From NCBI GenBank assembly GCA_016872855.1, contig VGYV01000004.1, positions 1 to 36,963 on the forward strand: a stretch of 36,963 nucleotides of DNA. Reading direction: 5' to 3'. Positions 9,727 through 34,544 of the stretch are shown piece after piece. The stretch is from Planctomycetota bacterium. Its GTDB lineage: Bacteria > Planctomycetota > PUPC01 > DSUN01. The position numbers and the translations under genes were made by a program. Positions within the stretch are counted from its first letter, which is position 1. Every line of letters begins with the position of its first letter. The notes beneath the pieces are model-generated. The model did no database searches and was not told the origin of the DNA. It saw only the letters and a list, made by a program, of their open reading frames with translations.

Positions 9727-9748
9727 GCAATTGCCTCCTGACAAGTCT

Positions 9749-9842
9749 CTGCCGCCCCCTGCGGGGGCTGGGCCTTCCTCCGCTCCACATCCCACGGGCT
9801 CACGCCCGTGGCTATCCCCTGCCGCCTCCTGCGGAGGCTGGG
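9749..9842. repeat. REP-like composite unit, left copy
   Basis: CTGCCGCCCCCTGCGGGGGCTG-GGCCTTC-N-CCACGGGCTCACGCCCGTGGCTAT-CCC-CTGCCGCCTCCTGCGGAGGCTG; near-identical to 10636-10730. Confidence 0.85.
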
Positions 9843-9859
9843 GCTGTCGCCGCCCTTCC

Positions 9860-9908
9860 CCACGGGCTCACGCCCGTGGCTATCTGCTTCCGCCCCCTGC
9901 GGGGGCTG
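9860..9908. repeat. additional REP-like unit
   Basis: CCACGGGCTCACGCCCGTGGCTAT (9860-9883) followed by CCGCCCCCTGCGGGGGCTG. Confidence 0.8.
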
Positions 9909-10011
9909 AGCTCTCCCTTCGCGCCCCCTGCGAGGGTCGGGCCGGTGCCTCCCGCTCTCGCCCCTGCGGTTGGCACTGCGCCCTCGCGCAAGCCCGTCAG
10001 GGCGACAGATG

Positions 10012-10148
10012 ATAGCCACGGGCGTGAGCCCGTGGATGGCGGAGTCTCCCACACCCGAACCCCCGCAGGAGGCGGCAGGGGATAGCCACGGGCGTGAGCC
10101 CGTGGACCGCCGGGACGACGCAACCCCAGCCCCCGCAGGGGGCGGCAG
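10012..10148. repeat. two inverted-orientation REP-like units
   Basis: ATAGCCACGGGCGTGAGCCCGTGG at 10012-10035 and 10082-10105, each followed by a CCCCCGCAGGRGGCGGCAG hairpin. Confidence 0.8.
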
Positions 10149-10157
10149 AGACCTCCA

Positions 10158-10610
10158 TCAATCGAGATAGTGCGCGCGGTCGAACTCGATCCCGTGTTTC
10201 TCGAGCAGCCGCGCCAACTCTCCCTCGAAAGGCGTGCGCCGGTGATGCGCTTCCTGCCGCTCAATGTACTCCACAACCCTCCCTCGATTCGATGCGCTCA
10301 CCGTGAACGAGGCATACCCCTGCTGCCACTCGAACAGCCCCATGCCCCGAACCGTCTCCGCCGCCCATTTCGAGGAGTTGGCCTTCACCTCGCGCACGAA
10401 GTCGGCCACCGCGACCGATGGCTTGACCGTGGCGAGAAGATGCACATGGTTCTTCGTCCCGCCAATGGTGAGGACCGCTCCGCCCACGTTTCGGGCGACG
10501 CCGCACATGTACTGGTGGAGCCTTCCCTTCACGTCGGACGTGATGGCTTCCCGGCGCTCCTTCGTGCTGAACACCACGTGATAGAGGTGGTTCGTGAACG
10601 TGTGGCCCAT
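10158..10610 (-). CDS. IS200-like / REP-associated tyrosine transposase (Y1/HUH, RAYT-type)
   Basis: MGHTFTNHLYHVVFSTKERRE..., HUH-type NHVHLL motif, C-terminal VVEYIERQEAHHRRTPFEGELARLLEKHGIEFD. SD aggagg; start re-set from 10691. Confidence 0.85.
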   Translation of the reverse strand: MGHTFTNHLYHVVFSTKERREAITSDVKGRLHQYMCGVARNVGGAVLTIGGTKNHVHLLATVKPSVAVADFVREVKANSSKWAAETVRGMGLFEWQQGYASFTVSASNRGRVVEYIERQEAHHRRTPFEGELARLLEKHGIEFDRAHYLD

Positions 10611-10635
10611 GCCCGTTCCTCCTGTCCCATGAGCT

Positions 10636-10730
10636 TCTGCCGCCCCCTGCGGGGGCTGGGCCTTCTGGCATTCCGTGATCCACGGGCTCACGCCCGTGGC
10701 TATCCCCTGCCGCCTCCTGCGGAGGCTGAG
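10636..10730. repeat. REP-like composite unit, right copy
   Basis: Same arrangement as 9749-9842, in direct orientation. Confidence 0.85.
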
Positions 10731-10785
10731 GAACCAGGCTTCGCTCTGGCATTCATCCAGTCATCCATTCCTCCATCCATCCCGC

Positions 10786-12163: not shown

Positions 12164-12269
12164 TGACCCCTCTCCCTTCCAGGGAGAGGGCAGGGTGAGG
12201 GTAGGACCCCGGGATTAGGGCAGGCGCCCAACCCTCCCCTTCCCCCTCCCTGAGAGGGAGGGGGGTTGA
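12164..12269. repeat. ~107-bp GC-rich interspersed element, intergenic copy
   Basis: tgacccctctcccttccagggagaggg...ccctccctgagagggaggggggttga; reverse complement matches 19275-19381, and it matches 33896-34014 directly. Confidence 0.8.
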
Positions 12270-16585: not shown

Positions 16586-16614
16586 TTGCAGAGGCCCGAG
16601 CCCGCGGGTATAGT
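16586..16614 (+). promoter_or_regulatory. sigma70-like promoter TTGCAG-N17-TATAGT
   Basis: 33 nt upstream of ATG 16647. Confidence 0.5.
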
Positions 16615-16646
16615 TGGGGCGGGAGGCAGGCCAGGACGGTGCCACA

Positions 16647-18065
16647 ATGGAACCCCGCCCGCGGCACACAGGCGTCCGCCTCGCGTTCGACAAGGGGACT
16701 CTGCGCCTGGAGGGCGCGACCGAGCGCGAGGCGGCGGGTCTACGCGAGACCGGGCCCTGGGTGTGGGACGCGCGCGTCTCCGCCTGGCGCTGCGATGCCA
16801 TCCACTACCCCACCGTGCGGGAGCGCCTGGCGGCACGGTTCGGCCCGCGGCTGGCCGACGACGTGGCGAAGCCGCCGCGCGTGTCGTGGCGCCAGGTGAG
16901 CCTGCCGCCGCTCCGCCGCGAACAGCAGGAGGCCCTCGACGCCTGGCTCGCCGCCGGCGGCCGCGGCCAGGTCATCATGCCCACGGGCACCGGCAAGACC
17001 GAGATCGCCCTCGCCGCCATGCGCCACACCAGCATCGCCACCCTCGTCGTCGCACCCGTCCGCGACCTGATGTACCAGTGGCACCGCCGCATCCTCCGCG
17101 GCCTCGGCTACGACGCCGGCATCCTCGGCGACAACCGCTGCAACGTCCAGCCCGTCACCGTCACCACCTACGACAGTGCCTACGCCCACATGCCCGACCT
17201 CGGTGCCTGCTTCGGCCTCATCGTCTTCGACGAGGAGCACCACCTGCCCGGCCGCTGCCGCCGCGAGGCCGCGCTCTTCGCCGCCGCGCCCCTCCGCCTC
17301 GGCCTCTCCGCCACGCCCGAGCGCTCGGACGGCCTTCACTCTGACCTCGACTTCCTCATCGGCCCCGTCGTCTATCGCCAGGAAATCCCCCACGCCAAAG
17401 GCCGCACCCTCGCCGACTACGACGTCGTCCGCATCCCAGTCGCCCTCGCCGACGACGAGCAGGCCCGCTACGAGGACTGCGGCCGTATCCTCCGCGACTT
17501 CATCGCCGCCCGCCGCAAGGACAAGCCGGACTACGACTGGCAGGACCTCTGCGCCGACACGGGCACGGACCCCGACGCCCGCCGCGCCCAGAAAGCCTTC
17601 TACGCCCGCAAGGCCATCGAGGACCGCGCGAGGGAGAAGCTCCGAGTCCTCGAAGACCTCTTCCGCCTCCACGCAGGCGAGCGCACCCTCGTCTTCGCAG
17701 GCTCCAACGCCATGGCCCTCGACGTCTCCCGCCGCTTCCTCGTCCCCACCCTCCTCGCCCACTCGCGCAAGCGCGAGCGACTCGCCGTCCTCGAAGGCTT
17801 CGCCGCCGGCCGCTTCCCCGTCCTCGTCGCCAACCAGGTCCTCGACGAGGGGGTGGACGTCCCCGAGGCCAAGGTCGCCGTCGTCATTGGCGGCATGGCG
17901 TCGAGCCGCCAGGCCAAGCAGCGATTGGGCCGCATCCTCCGCCGCACTGGCGACGCCCGAGCCACCCTCTACGAAGTCGTGTGCCAGGACACTGGCGAGG
18001 AGACCCGCTCCCGCCGCCGCCGCTCCAGCGACGCCTACGACCACACCACCCGCCGCCGCCTGTAA
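16647..18065 (+). CDS. XPB/SSL2-like superfamily 2 DNA helicase
   Basis: Walker A PTGTGKTE, motif II DEEHH, LSATPER, QAKQRLGRILRRTG motif VI. Confidence 0.85.
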   Translation: MEPRPRHTGVRLAFDKGTLRLEGATEREAAGLRETGPWVWDARVSAWRCDAIHYPTVRERLAARFGPRLADDVAKPPRVSWRQVSLPPLRREQQEALDAWLAAGGRGQVIMPTGTGKTEIALAAMRHTSIATLVVAPVRDLMYQWHRRILRGLGYDAGILGDNRCNVQPVTVTTYDSAYAHMPDLGACFGLIVFDEEHHLPGRCRREAALFAAAPLRLGLSATPERSDGLHSDLDFLIGPVVYRQEIPHAKGRTLADYDVVRIPVALADDEQARYEDCGRILRDFIAARRKDKPDYDWQDLCADTGTDPDARRAQKAFYARKAIEDRAREKLRVLEDLFRLHAGERTLVFAGSNAMALDVSRRFLVPTLLAHSRKRERLAVLEGFAAGRFPVLVANQVLDEGVDVPEAKVAVVIGGMASSRQAKQRLGRILRRTGDARATLYEVVCQDTGEETRSRRRRSSDAYDHTTRRRL

Positions 18066-18466: not shown

Positions 18467-18491
18467 CAATCCCGGGCGCGCAGCTCCTCCC

Positions 18492-18585
18492 CCCTCTCCC
18501 TTGGGGAGAGGGCTGGGGTGAGGGTGCTTGGGCACTTCCCGATCCTGAGGCACCCTCACCCTGACCCTCTCCCCGAGGGAGAGGG
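18492..18585. repeat. 36-bp-arm inverted repeat CCCTCTCCCTTGGGGAGAGGGCTGGGGTGAGGGTGC
   Basis: Arms 18492-18527 and 18550-18585, few mismatches. Confidence 0.8.
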
Positions 18586-18615
18586 AACAGAGGGCGTTGC
18601 GGCGCACTCGGGGCG

Positions 18616-20073
18616 ATGGTGTTAGGGCCAGACTCGGTGCTCACCAGCGAGCAATCCATCATCGTCTATGACGGCGGGCGGGCGTGGCCTGACCGGTTGA
18701 CGCAGCGCGCGCACGCGCACTACCTGGACTACGCGCGGCGGATGCTGGCGGTCTACCAGCATGGGGTCGGCCAGACCCGCCGCGAACTCCACCGCTCGGT
18801 CGAGGGCATCCTCGCGAATGAGCCCGACTGCGATACGCGGCGGATTCAGGCTTTCTGCAAGCTGCTCGATGAGGCGGGGGAGTTCGATACCGACCGCCGC
18901 GGCAACGCCGCGAAGCTGCGCCTGGCAGTCTTCGACCTCGCCGCGCCGCTCCACCCCCTGGTGGAGAGCCGCGACCAGCTTTTCGAGAACACCGAGTCGG
19001 AGGCCAAGGCCCACATCGCCCAACGCCTCGGCCGCCCCTGGCCGGAAATCGAGGGGGAACTCTACGCCGACGTGATGGACTTCCATCGCCTCACGGCCTT
19101 CGAGGGCTACTCGAATGCGGCGGCGCTGCTGCGCCGCTACAACGTCGCACAGCTCCAGGCCGCGCTCTACCGCGCCGAGCGACTCGTCATCGCCGCCTCG
19201 GAGGACTTCAAGACAATCCTCCGCTACGCCAAGCTGGCGCAACTCCTCCACGACATCCGCCGGCTCCCCCCACTCCAACCCCCCTCCCTCTCAGGGAGGG
19301 GGAACGGGGAGGGTGGGGCGCCGGTCCTCGCGGCGAAGTCCCACCCTCACCCTACCCTCGCCCTGGAAGGGAGAGGGGTCAAGGCACCCTTCGCCCCTCT
19401 GCCTGGCGGGGAGAGGGAGGGCACGAACGTCCCGCTTGCCGACCGCAGCGCCCATTGCCAGCAATGGGCTCCCGACGGTTGCGGCTACGTTATCGAGCTT
19501 TCGGGGCCGGCCTCGGTGCTGCGCGAGACGCGACGCTACGGGATCAACTTCGCTCGATTCCTGCCCGCCCTCCTCGCGTGCGACGGCTGGGCGATGCAGG
19601 CGACGCTCCGCACCCCCTGGGGCGGGAAGGCGCTCCTGGCCCTCAGCAGCCGGGATGGGCTTCAGAGCACCATGCCGCCACCGGAGGAGTTCGATTCGTC
19701 GGTTGAGGAGGGCTTCGCCGCGAAGTTTGGGGCCGAGCGCGACGGCTGGCGCCTCGGCCGCGAGGGCGAGGTGCTCGTCGAGGGCCAAAGCGTCTTCGTT
19801 CCCGACTTCGCCTTCCGCCACGGCGATGGCACCGAGGTGCTTCTGGAGATCGTGGGCTTCTGGACGCCCGAGTATCTGGAGAAGAAGCGGGCGACGCTTC
19901 GGCGCTTCCGCGGCCGCCGCGTCTACCTGGCCGTCGCCGAGCGATGCCTGCCCGAGGGCGCGACCGTGTCCGAGGACGTGGTGGTCTACAAGACCGCGCT
20001 CAAAGTGGAGCCCGTCCTCGCCCTCCTCGAGCGCGCCCGAAGGCGGGAAGCACCAATGACCAATGACCAATGA
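18616..20073 (+). CDS. Bax1-like nuclease (DUF790 family) carrying in-frame repeat insertions
   Basis: YSNAAALLRRYNVAQLQAALYRAERL; YGINFARFLPALLACDGWAMQA; VPDFAFRHGDGTEVLLEIVGFWTPEYLEKKRATL; follows an XPB-like helicase. Confidence 0.8.
   Translation: MVLGPDSVLTSEQSIIVYDGGRAWPDRLTQRAHAHYLDYARRMLAVYQHGVGQTRRELHRSVEGILANEPDCDTRRIQAFCKLLDEAGEFDTDRRGNAAKLRLAVFDLAAPLHPLVESRDQLFENTESEAKAHIAQRLGRPWPEIEGELYADVMDFHRLTAFEGYSNAAALLRRYNVAQLQAALYRAERLVIAASEDFKTILRYAKLAQLLHDIRRLPPLQPPSLSGRGNGEGGAPVLAAKSHPHPTLALEGRGVKAPFAPLPGGEREGTNVPLADRSAHCQQWAPDGCGYVIELSGPASVLRETRRYGINFARFLPALLACDGWAMQATLRTPWGGKALLALSSRDGLQSTMPPPEEFDSSVEEGFAAKFGAERDGWRLGREGEVLVEGQSVFVPDFAFRHGDGTEVLLEIVGFWTPEYLEKKRATLRRFRGRRVYLAVAERCLPEGATVSEDVVVYKTALKVEPVLALLERARRREAPMTNDQ
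19275..19381. repeat. ~107-bp GC-rich interspersed element, in-frame copy in the Bax1-like gene
   Basis: Near-identical to the reverse complement of 12164-12269; translated as QPPSLSGRGNGEGGAPVLAAKSHPHPTLALEGRGVK. Confidence 0.8.
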
Positions 20074-22354: not shown

Positions 22355-22384
22355 GCCTTGCCGCCGCCTTTGCGCTGGGCGCAG

Positions 22385-22418
22385 GAACATTGCAGAGTTG
22401 TTCAACTCCGCAATGTTC
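22385..22418. repeat. AT-rich 34-nt palindrome GAACATTGCAGAGTTGTTCAACTCCGCAATGTTC
   Basis: Identical copy at 34511-34544. Confidence 0.85.
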
Positions 22419-25639: not shown

Positions 25640-25734
25640 GGGCACGACCCGAGCGGACACACGCTGCGGCACGAACAAGCTCCTGGAAAGAGTTGCGGTT
25701 GTCTCTTCCACGCGACGAACAAGTCCCGAAGGGA

Positions 25735-25891
25735 CGATAGGGTTTTGCCGGCGGCGTAAGCCGCCGGATCGCGGAGCGGCCAGAACCAAGCCCCGGAGGG
25801 GCGAAAGGACCCGGCGTTCCTTTCGCCCCGTCGGGGCTGCGCCTCTGGCATCACCCTTCCGGCGGCTCACGCCGCCGGCAAAACCCTATCG
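25735..25891. mobile_element. MITE-like nested palindrome with 33-bp terminal inverted repeats
   Basis: Outer arms 25735-25767 and 25859-25891 differ at one position; inner arms 25789-25809 and 25818-25838. Confidence 0.65.
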
Positions 25892-28800
25892 CTCCTTCGG
25901 AGCTGGGCTGGGGATGTTCCCCGCCCAGGCGGCCACTTCGGGCTGATGAACCATTGCGAACGAGCAGCGAATGGGGTAGTTGCACACGCAGCCCACCGTG
26001 TAATTGGGCACGCTCACGATGCCGTCGGCCGCGACCAGGCTGTTGCTGCACCCCGAGCGGATATTCCGCAGGTAGTAGCGCGCGCGGGACTGCGCGTCTA
26101 CGTAGCAGGCCGTCGTGTCGCGCATGAGGAAGAGGTGCTGGCTGCCGACGGCGTAGTTGCAGCCGCTCGTCTTGCGGAAGAGGGGCGTCTTGTCGAGGGG
26201 CTTGCCGGTCGCGGTGTCGAAGGGGATGCCACCCTGGTGGACGAACGTGTCCCCGCGGAGGATCAGCGGCTGGGCGCCGAGGGCCTGCTCCCAGACGAGT
26301 TCGCCGGTCGCCGCCTTGTAGGCCCGCCCACGGCTGTACTTGCCCGTGATAAGGATGTCTTGAGCCTCCGAATACGCGAGCCAGTCGTCGTGGGCCATCT
26401 GCGCGGTCCAGCCGCCGATGGCGTAGACGCGATAGGCATTCTCGACGTTTGCGCTCCAGCGGACGGCGCCCGTGCGGGCGTCGAGGGCGAGGATTTCGCA
26501 GGGCATGGTCTTCGGCACCGCCTTGGGGTCCTCCAGCGCCTTGGTCTGGACGGCGGAGGGCGAATCAATGGCGAACACAGTGCCCCGACCGATGGCGAGG
26601 GCGTTGTTGTTGAAGCGCTGCTTCGCCTGCCGCGTCCAGAGGGTCGCGCCCGTCTTGCGGTCGAGGGCGACGAGGAGCGTGCTGTCCCAGAGCCCCTTCT
26701 CGATGATCCGTACCTTCTCGAAGGCCACGGCGACGACGATCACGTCGTCGCCCACGCGGATGTCAGAGACGAGGGGCTTGCGCTGGGCAGGTGGTGGCAC
26801 AGGCATCTTGCCTGTGTCCCCCACAGGCGGGACGCCTGTGCCACCCTGCTCTGCCGCCTGGTAGGTGAACTTCGCCTTCTCGGCGCCCGTGGCGGGGTCG
26901 AGGATGGTGCAGGCATCGTTCGCGGCCACATATATGCCGTCGGGTTGCGCGGCGAAGCGGGTGAATGCCTCGGTCTTGGCCCGCCACAGGTGGCGGCCGG
27001 TATAGGCATCGTAGGCGAAGAGCGCCCGCATCGGCAGTGAGTAGGCAAAGACGCGGCCCCCCACCACCTGCGGCTTCACGCCGATGCCATAGTCGTTGTT
27101 CGTCCAGAACTCGTTCTCCCCCTCCTGCCCGTACCAGAGGATGCCCAGCGGCGCCTTGACCAGTTGGTCCTTCGAGAAGAACGAGCGCGCGGCGTCGCCG
27201 CACTCGTGGGTCCACGAGGCCGAGCCGGCCAGCGGCCCCTTCAGCTTCACCATCGTGGTCTTGTCTCCCTCGACCGAGCAGATCGCGCCGCCGTAGGGGT
27301 GGAGGACGTCGCGGAGCTTCTCCATCGCCTCCCGGCTCGGGAAGCCTGTCTCCGAGACGATCAGGCTGGCGAGGTAGGACGGGAAGTGGGACGCGAAGGG
27401 GTCGCCCACGAACAGCTCGGCCTTCGTGCCGTAGACGCCGGCGGCTACCAGCTTCTCGTGGAATGCCCGCACCTTCGCCGCATCCGCATCCACGCCAATC
27501 ACCCGCAGGTTCGGCTGCGCAACCAGATGGTACAGGAACCGTCCATCGTTGAGGCCGAGGACCAGGGCATAGCCTTCCGACCGTTCGATGGGAACCTGGG
27601 GGAGCTTGGGCAGCGGAACGGTGGCAAGAGGCCATGTCTGCGCCTCCGCCTTGTCGCCGCTGAAGCAGAAGAGGCCGCCCTCTTTCGTGGCGACGAAGAG
27701 CTTGCCGTCGGCGGCGGCCATCGAGGAGGGCGTGCCGTCGAGGGCGTGGTGCCAGACGACACGCGGTTGGCGGCCCTCCGCCGGAAGCTCGACGGCGAGG
27801 AGGGTCTTCCCCGCGTGGCCGTAGAGGCGGTTGCCCGCCTTGATCAGCGCGTCGCTGGCGGGCTTGGACTTCGCGTGCTCGGTCTCGAGCTTCCACAGTT
27901 CGGGCAGGTCCCACCGCCAGGGGCGGGCATCGTGCGTGCCGTGCAGCTTCGTCTCGTATTCCGACACGGCGGGGCGCGCGAGGTCGTAGGCGTAGAAGAC
28001 ACCTTGCTGCGAGCCATAGGCGACGCCACGTTCGAGCGCGGACCAGGCGGAGAGGCCAGGCTGCATCTTGTAGGGGAAGATAGGCGCCTCGAACAGGTGC
28101 ACCTTCTTGACGTCGAAGCGCTTCGGCGCGGCGTCGCCCGCCTCGGCCCAGCGGCTGCCCACCTCGCGGCCCGTCGTGATGTCCACCGCCCCGGCCCGCC
28201 CGACGAAGGCGAGGTTGCCCATCGCCGCCAGGCGGCACTCGCCGTGGCGATAGCCCTGCACGTAGCGGAGCACCTTGCCCGACTTGCGGTCGAGCACGGC
28301 CGGCATCGAGCGGCCGTTGGGCACGAGCAACATGTCGCCCGCGACGGCCAGGTGGCCCTGGGGCGAGAGGCCCGTGTCGAACAGCTCGTTGTGGTCAATC
28401 CGTACCTTCTCGATCAGGTTCGCCTCGCCGTTGCGCCACAGCACGCGGCCCGTCTCGGCCTCGACCGCGGCCACGAACACCCCAAGCGTCGGCCACACGC
28501 CCGCGCCGAAGTAGAGCACGCCATCGGCGAGCACCGGGCCGCCGCGGACCGGCCAGTAGGAGATGAGCCGCGCGTTGCCCAGGTGGTAGCGTTGGGGCCG
28601 GTCGTCGGGCGCGCCCCGCACCTTCCAACGCAGCGTGCCCCTCGCCGCGTCGAGGCAGTAGAGCCAGCCGTCGTCCGAGCCGAAGCATACGCGGTCCTTC
28701 CACGCCACGGGCGCCAGCCGCACCGGGCCGTTGGCGAGGAACCACCAGAGCCGCTCCCCCGTCTCCGTGCTGTAGGCCGTCAACGTGCCGTCGTTCGCCG

Positions 28801-32444: not shown

Positions 32445-34442
32445 TCACTCCAGGCCCGAGGGAACGCTGACCGTCTGCCCGATGGCTGGTGGAGTGAAGG
32501 GCACGAAGGCGCCGCGGCGGCAGGCGAACCAGCGAAGGGAAGGGTCTTCGAGCAGGACGCGGAAGCGGAAGGCGGCCTCGGCGGGCCGGCCGTCGGGCGT
32601 GAGGGCCGTTATCTCCACGGTCGCCGCCGTCAACTCCACCTTCTCGCCCAGGCGCATCGGGTGGTCGGGGCCGCGGAAGAGGATGTCGAAGAAGCGGACC
32701 ATGTGGGCGAAGGAGAACGCGGCGGGCGGCCGGCCAGGGTCGGGCGAGCCGCCCAGGGGCAACAGGTAGCCGGCCGCCGGCCGCACGACGAGCGTGCGCT
32801 CGTCCGACCGCGTGATGGCGACGGGTGCCGAGGACGGCCCGAGGCTGAGGCAGCGCTCGGGCACGGGCCGGCCGTCCCTCATCCGCGTGAGCATCCAGAG
32901 CATGTGGCTGCACGCGGCGGGGTTGACGAAGACGAACGTCTGCCCCGGCGCCTCAGGGCCGGGGTCCAGCGCGGCATAGTGGGTCTCCACCAGCTTGCCC
33001 ACGAACCAGATGCCCGCCGTCCGCACGGGAAAGAGCAGCGGGGCAAGGACAAGGTGGAGGGCGACGAAGAGCGCGGCGAGCGCGCGGGCGAGGCCCCGCC
33101 ACGCCCTGGCCTTTGGCAGCCACTCGGCCTTGGCCCGCACGCCGCCGAGCCACATGGCGAGGAGGCCCATCGCCCCCAGGCCAGGGAACATCAGGAGGCG
33201 ATTCATCGGGAACGCCGCGCACACGGGCGCCACCGAGAGCGCCATCCCCAGCGCCCAGAAGCGGGCCACGCGGCCGCGGCGGACGAGTGGCGCCAGCAGG
33301 ACTCCCAGGAGAATCAGGAAGGCGACCGCCCAGACCCACAGCCCGCGGAAGGCAGCCGCCGAGAGCATCGAGCTGATGTCGGCCTCGGGAAAGCCCCACT
33401 GAGCCGCCAGCAGCACAGGCGCGTTTCGGACGACTCGCCCGGCGAAGGCAAGCGGGGCGTGGCCGGGGTCAACGTACATCGCCGAGCCCACGACGCCTAG
33501 GCCGAGGGCCTTGTAGGCGGCGCACCAGGCGATGCCCACGAGAGCACAGGGCGCGAGCGCCGCCAGGCGCCGGCGCCACGGCGCGGGGTCGAGGAAGGCG
33601 GCGTAGGCGAGGAGATAGGCCCCGACGCCCACGGCCTCCTCCTTGGCCAGGAGCGCCGCGGCGAGGGCGAGCGGAGCCAGGAGCGCGCCGGGGCGCCAGC
33701 CGTCGCGCCGCCAGCGATCATGGGCGAGGATAGCCAGGAAGCCAAACACACCGGCGATCAGCGCATTGCGGTTCGACAGCCAGCCCGCGGGCCACGCGTG
33801 GCCGTTGTCGAGTGTGAATAGCAGCGCCGCCAGCACGGCCGGCACAGGCGGGATGCCTGTGCTACCCTCGACCCCTGCGAGGGAGCGGGGTGCCTTGACC
33901 CCTCTCCCTTCCAGGGAGAGGCCGCCTCGGCCGCGAGGCGGGTGAGGGTTGGGCCCTGGGGCGGCACAGGCCCCAACCCTCCCCCTTCCCCCTCCCTGAG
34001 AGGGAGGGGGGTTGTGGCCCATGAGCCGCCGATAGAGCGTCGCCGCCGTCCAGAGCAGCGCGGCGAACCAGAGCAGGCTATGGACGTGCATGAGGGCGGG
34101 GCAGTCGTCGAGCACGCGGAAGTCGAGCAGGTGCGTCAACGCGGCCAATGGGCGGAAGAAGGCGGCCCGGGCCCGCGGATACATCCACCAGGGCACGTAG
34201 CCCTTATCCATCAGCGCGTGGTTCTGCGCGGGGTCGCCGTTGAAGAAGGTGAACGGCTCCCACGGCCCGCGGCGGACCCCCTCGGCGGGGGAGAGGCGGA
34301 GCGCTGCCCCGCGAATCATCAGGTCATCGGTCTGGAGGCCGATGAAGAGCGAGGGCGAGGCGAGCAGCAGCCCGAGCGCGACCAGGAGCCCCCGGTAGCG
34401 CCGGCCCGCCATCCATTCGCACAATCGCGCGAGCCTGCTCAT
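32445..34442 (-). CDS. polytopic membrane protein (GT39/PMT-like) with in-frame repeat insertion
   Basis: Many TM segments; ATG 34442 (MSRLARLCEWMAGRRYRG); internal NPPPSQGGGRGRVG...SLEGRGVKAPRS...STGIPPVPA is repeat-derived. Confidence 0.6.
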   Translation of the reverse strand: MSRLARLCEWMAGRRYRGLLVALGLLLASPSLFIGLQTDDLMIRGAALRLSPAEGVRRGPWEPFTFFNGDPAQNHALMDKGYVPWWMYPRARAAFFRPLAALTHLLDFRVLDDCPALMHVHSLLWFAALLWTAATLYRRLMGHNPPPSQGGGRGRVGACAAPGPNPHPPRGRGGLSLEGRGVKAPRSLAGVEGSTGIPPVPAVLAALLFTLDNGHAWPAGWLSNRNALIAGVFGFLAILAHDRWRRDGWRPGALLAPLALAAALLAKEEAVGVGAYLLAYAAFLDPAPWRRRLAALAPCALVGIAWCAAYKALGLGVVGSAMYVDPGHAPLAFAGRVVRNAPVLLAAQWGFPEADISSMLSAAAFRGLWVWAVAFLILLGVLLAPLVRRGRVARFWALGMALSVAPVCAAFPMNRLLMFPGLGAMGLLAMWLGGVRAKAEWLPKARAWRGLARALAALFVALHLVLAPLLFPVRTAGIWFVGKLVETHYAALDPGPEAPGQTFVFVNPAACSHMLWMLTRMRDGRPVPERCLSLGPSSAPVAITRSDERTLVVRPAAGYLLPLGGSPDPGRPPAAFSFAHMVRFFDILFRGPDHPMRLGEKVELTAATVEITALTPDGRPAEAAFRFRVLLEDPSLRWFACRRGAFVPFTPPAIGQTVSVPSGLE
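33896..34014. repeat. ~119-bp GC-rich interspersed element, in-frame copy in the membrane-protein gene
   Basis: tgacccctctcccttccagggagagg...ccctccctgagagggaggggggttg; same ends as 12164-12269. Confidence 0.8.
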
Positions 34443-34510
34443 TTCACTTCGGCCTAGTCCATTTCGGACGCTCCCGCTGGGCACCCGGACGTGTGCGCCA
34501 GTGGCAGGAG

Positions 34511-34544
34511 GAACATTGCAGAGTTGTTCAACTCCGCAATGTTC
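34511..34544. repeat. AT-rich 34-nt palindrome, identical to 22385-22418
   Basis: gaacattgcagagttgttcaactccgcaatgttc. Confidence 0.85.

Follow-up and report, generated by a model that had tools for sequence, protein, structure and literature searches.

The gene for a Bax1-type repair nuclease in a planctomycete carries an in-frame cluster of palindromic repeats, which are very probably mobile and tolerated by the gene. It lies in contig VGYV01000004.1 (assembly GCA_016872855.1), in a stretch of 36,963 nucleotides that was analysed as a whole and is called the window here. An earlier note had described the insert (19262-19480) as a single interspersed element of ~107 bp. The insert peptide and its coordinates were as given there. 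The reading as a single element was ruled out by the presence of three distinct repeat families: judged by its sequence, the insert is a nested stack of three short palindromic repeat families, called A, B and C below. This mosaic of three or more repeats adds about 207-213 nt (69-71 aa) relative to the homologues.

The host gene encodes the nuclease partner of XPB

The open reading frame at 18616-20073 (+ strand) specifies a protein of 485 aa. In a profile search Pfam PF05626 (DUF790) spanned residues 9-471 with an E-value of 8.9e-84, which agrees with the earlier assignment to Bax1/DUF790 and with a frame that is kept across the insert; the NCBIfam Bax1 models scored below their cut-off on this product. 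The best Foldseek match of the predicted model was the Bax1 chain 6p4w_B (E 3e-24), and the nearest solved folds were all archaeal Bax1. The gene is located downstream of an XPB-like helicase gene (16614-18065, + strand; Pfam ResIII, ERCC3_RAD25_C and XPB_DRD), the usual partner of Bax1. Together, the DUF790 match, the adjacent XPB gene and the archaeal Bax1 folds indicate that the host gene supplies the nuclease of an XPB-Bax1 repair pair. The acidic residues of the AfBax1 nuclease are E275, D305 and E318 (PMC7293015). These appear to correspond to E364, D397 and E411 of the window protein, which are invariant in 23 homologues; the equivalence with E275 is suggested by the alignment context. 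Only one Bax1 gene was found when the genome containing the window was searched. Its product is ~60% identical to Phycisphaerae homologues as opposed to ~30-37% in the sample of its own class and phylum, which might point to a horizontal acquisition. Immediately 5' of it, at 18484-18592, a diverged inverted REP pair resembling family A is present.

The insert expands a single loop

Alignment with DUF790 homologues confined the insert to one loop (19264-19488, + strand), and the segment RRLPPLQPP...DGCG had no counterpart in nearly all of the 21 aligned homologues. When 84 homologues were measured, the loop linking the KLARLLH helix to the Y-I-SGPAS strand usually comprised 2-6 aa; it is 72 aa long in the window, 14 aa in haloarchaea and 30-47 aa in two Methanosarcina species. 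The expansions in the latter (L138 and L147) are low-complexity and charged. Not one of the 84 homologues contained the insert as conserved sequence, and it was also missing from the solved Bax1 chains; the finding of such a conserved segment in unrelated genomes had been named as a possible refutation. In an AF2 model, pLDDT stays below 50 over residues 221-282 and is about 25-37 over most of this stretch, with confident structure on either side (strands 211-216 and 291-296). The inserted ~70 aa are thus predicted to form a disordered loop between two strands. In the alignment the position of the insert falls between AfBax1 residues 194 and 200, inside the Cas2-like domain (residues 168-260; PMC7293015). 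A search for an empty site, proposed in the earlier note, yielded none for Bax1 at the DNA level.

Family A avoids genes but does not spare them

The first component is a family A copy of about 105 bp at 19276-19381 (+ strand). It matches the reverse complement of an intergenic copy at 12164-12268 (- strand) with 87% identity (E 5e-29), as had been noticed before. With the query 19268-19490, 62 matches were obtained in the window's own genome, many of 82-90% identity over about 105 bp and far beyond chance; family A thus occurs in dozens of copies. The copies are genuine structured interspersed repeats and not low-complexity matches, the other possibility that had been raised against the element. 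Aligned copies have two terminal hairpins that are inverted with respect to each other (fold z = -5.0) and also match themselves on the opposite strand. The outer ends carry no GTAG/CGTC tag, and the only GTAG is located just within one of the hairpins. Additional REP units follow family A at L003, L016 and L024. In 58 relatives the full-length element was not detected, only short partial matches.

A further copy in the window (33888-34014, - strand; locus L030) is in frame within the open reading frame 32445-34484 (- strand). In the histidine kinase L002, family A accounts for 52 extra aa, placed precisely between residues 49 and 50 of the 9jfj chain, in the turn of the HisKA helical hairpin. 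Among the fetched loci, on which the census of families A and C rests, family A was in frame at 6 of 26 further loci versus 47% of random blocks of equal size (Fisher p 0.02). Family A therefore avoids genes yet does not spare them.

In Bax1, family A is joined to family B by a fragment of a REP-like hairpin of the type CCCCTCT..GGGGAGAGGG (19382-19427, + strand). Family B (19428-19488, + strand) ends in GGCTAC at 19488, a GTAG/CTAC end, and its 5' end is truncated in the window. Comparison with related, fuller units in L171 and L241 identifies it as part of a GTAG-type REPIN, of which it is a remnant with a family C unit nested inside. The 61 nt of 19428-19488 are 98% identical to G000:C86:13907-13967, which is likewise in an open coding frame. 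Because the C86 copy has the same nested unit, B and C probably moved as one.

Family C adds exactly seven residues in four genes

The small palindrome that had been seen at ~19451 (GCCCATTGCCAGCAATGGGC) is present at 19450-19469. These 20 bp are the centre of a conserved 27-bp unit (19448-19474, + strand), with the consensus CGGG-N-GCCC(A/G)TTGCCGGCAA(T/C)GGGC-GC in 53 aligned copies. With at most 3 mismatches the palindrome gave 46 forward and 53 reverse matches, and the reversed-pattern control gave 0. A looser pattern returned mostly identical sites (control 5 and 5). Compensatory pairs were found at position 5 (A:T in 29 and G:C in 23 copies) and at position 7 (T:A in 46 and C:G in 6). 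The unit is free of stop codons in all six frames. It was absent from all 198 other genomes of the phylum, and viral contigs contained no exact match.

Comparison of host proteins with solved relatives revealed exactly seven extra residues in glycine dehydrogenase subunit 1 (GcvPA; L240 against 1wyt), a D-aminoacylase (L221 against 1rjp) and a histidine kinase (L192 against 9jfj and 3d36). A radical SAM protein (L209), for which there was no PDB alignment match, was compared with its relatives instead; it has 7 residues more than the orthologue L275 of a genome of the same family. L275 represents an empty site, 21 nt shorter than L209. The length of the insert was ambiguous in a GDSL esterase (L237, 4-aa gap) and a PIG-L protein (L196, large gap). 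As 21 nt are added and 27 nt conserved, about 6 conserved nucleotides belong to the target, for which the CGGG foot is the natural candidate. At the loci fetched, 28 of the 50 testable copies were in frame in coding DNA, as compared with 65% of random positions at the same loci (Fisher p 0.22), and in-frame copies occurred in all three phases. The codon score used for this count is imperfect, as 16 of 190 wrong frames of known genes pass 0.1. Hence, no avoidance of coding DNA by family C is detectable.

It is an even bet that family C is a frame-neutral, stop-free mobile sequence of 21 nt. It would insert on the 3' side of a conserved CGGG, leave the target unduplicated and have spread through coding and non-coding DNA with no discernible bias, giving dozens of proteins of one lineage 7 additional residues each. 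The 21-nt length itself may have been selected for tolerance in genes.

Alternative explanations

A perfect 20-bp palindrome with conserved flanks that is spread through genes resembles the site of a dimeric protein. Family C might therefore have arisen in situ as a DNA motif for binding or structure, without any insertion. This is unlikely, since at four sites the homologues are shorter by exactly 7 residues, which implies that DNA was added; family C might still serve as a binding site once inserted. As to the Bax1 insert, a function of its own, for instance as a regulatory or DNA-binding tail, could be envisaged, because the Cas2-like domain in which the loop resides is proposed to place Bax1 at forked DNA (PMC7293015) and because the loop is also longer in haloarchaea and Methanosarcina. 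Those extensions are, however, unrelated in sequence, and in the window the loop consists of repeat DNA that is read through and predicted to be disordered, so that such a function seems decidedly improbable.

Slightly less probable still is that the gene is a decaying pseudogene whose frame has by chance stayed open through the repeats, the genome being rich in GC. GC-rich repeats are often free of stops by chance, and the insert is indeed open in all three forward frames. Against this, the DUF790 match continues in one frame on both sides of the insert, E364, D397 and E411 are kept, and codon usage is gene-like on both flanks (0.72/0.22). Finally, interspersed repeats are classic misjoin points, and the source is a fragmented metagenome assembly of 1143 contigs with 5.8% contamination. 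Nevertheless, a false join produced by the repeat is extremely improbable: the flanks are halves of one protein in the same frame, the genome holds a single Bax1 gene, and comparable in-frame copies exist in other genes. The presence of tolerated mobile palindromes in a coding Bax1 gene is the reading followed below.

The same loop has been hit in other Bax1 genes

In the Bax1 gene of a Phycisphaerae MAG (L069), a GTAG...CTAC double hairpin is present in frame in the same loop; the first half of this hairpin gave 75 matches in that genome and 0 in the control. Another Bax1 gene (L071), likewise from a MAG, has at this place, also in frame, a 72-nt tandem REP-like unit; a hairpin within this unit gave 66 matches in the genome concerned. 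Both repeats are unrelated in sequence to those of the window. The Bax1 loop tolerates insertions and has been struck on independent occasions, one repair-nuclease loop having received unrelated palindromes in three genomes. In the 21-aa loop of L070 no hairpin or repeat was apparent by eye.

A possible route of insertion

The mobility of the repeats is something that we infer from their copies and from the one empty site. Non-autonomous palindromic repeats would have accumulated as a nested cluster in a surface beta-turn of the nuclease. An HUH (Y1) transposase would have acted on each of them in trans and inserted a copy in the form of a single-stranded hairpin. Within genes, only those copies would persist that change the net length by a multiple of three, bring no stop codon into the frame and sit in a loop able to accommodate them. 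Family C complies automatically with the requirements for length and absence of stops, which would explain why it does not detectably avoid genes. The effect of the insert on the nuclease would probably be neutral.

Insertions of the IS200/IS605 type take place beside a short target and without duplication, the target role proposed above for the CGGG foot of family C. The genome has 19 matches to Y1 transposases, and whether these mobilise the palindromic repeats is about equally likely either way. Neither family A nor family C was found as a flanking repeat at the 17 Y1 loci examined, so that the step from hairpin to insertion is one that we infer. A link of family A or C with a particular Y1 transposase was accordingly rejected; the Y1 gene of the window is flanked by a different REP. 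This Y1/IS200-type gene (about 10254-10598, - strand) is surrounded, in the region 9745-10731, by several REP copies of the form CCACGGGC(TCAC/GTGA)GCCCGTGG, and the region is likely a unit of a REP and its cognate transposase. At L270 (about 1863-1950) and L036 (about 1265-1350), other Y1 genes of the genome have repeated hairpins of their own close by (CCTCCCGAAGGT..ACCTTCGGGAGG and TAGCCCACGGCGTAAGCCGTGGG).

Relation to known repeats

The analogy with Rickettsia palindromic elements (RPEs) drawn in the earlier note stands in kind, that of an in-frame, coding-tolerated palindromic repeat. In their architecture, the components of the insert come closer to REPs and REPINs. In the sources that recount them, RPEs are palindromic repeats of 105-146 bp forming in-frame fusions to unrelated protein genes (Ogata et al., 2000, via PMC2229807 and PMC10969869). 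RPEs and the window repeats have in-frame insertion in protein genes in common; RPEs belong to another lineage and family C is far shorter, and the likeness drawn here is one of description.

Closer precedents are the intragenic GTAG/CGTC REPs. The relevant passages of Di Nocera et al. (2013; PMC3733652) describe such repeats within genes in frame, often as dimers or clusters; the clusters encode 43-82 aa, many are situated in the repair genes uvrA, uvrB and recB, and in one case about the same site is occupied in two species. Bax1 is not named in those passages. In-frame REPs in repair genes have thus been published already, and the Bax1 insert is a further such case. Family A differs from these repeats in lacking a clear terminal GTAG/CGTC tag. 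It shares with REPINs and RAYTs (PMC3116915, PMC8266576) the two inverted REP units, the multiple copies and a genome with Y1 transposases, but not a transposase flanked by the repeat. Coding MITEs (Delihas, 2007; PMC2759123, PMC2229807) likewise are short mobile sequences through which proteins gain peptide segments in frame; most of them are bounded by terminal inverted repeats, and target duplications are frequent, whereas none were seen for family C. Family C is a multicopy palindrome within the 20-40 bp of a REP but bears no GTAG or CGTC tag, and REPs are mostly intergenic, which family C is not. What sets it apart from the known cases is the constant length of 21 nt, the CGGG flank and the lack of detected coding avoidance, and a published description of it was not found in the open-access literature.

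Intragenic repeats are usually assumed to be purged. The genome offers a graded natural experiment on this, the 105-bp element being depleted in genes and the 21-nt element not measurably avoided. Two questions thereby become testable: by what means a tiny hairpin moves when no transposase flanks it, and whether functioning enzymes acquire new peptide segments from mobile repeats.

Some further repeats were noticed in the window. Four matches to the Rfam 'sRNA' Acido-Lenti-1 (RF01687), at 9860-9907, 9991-10035, 25722-25767 and 25859-25904, coincide with REP-type palindromes and two of them adjoin the Y1 transposase gene; RF01687 may thus represent a REP and not a gene for an RNA. A 43-nt repeat, GGAACATTGCAGAGTTGTTCAACTCCGCAATGTTC, is present at 22376-22418 and 34502-34544 with 93% identity and forms an AT-richer hairpin unlike the other families.
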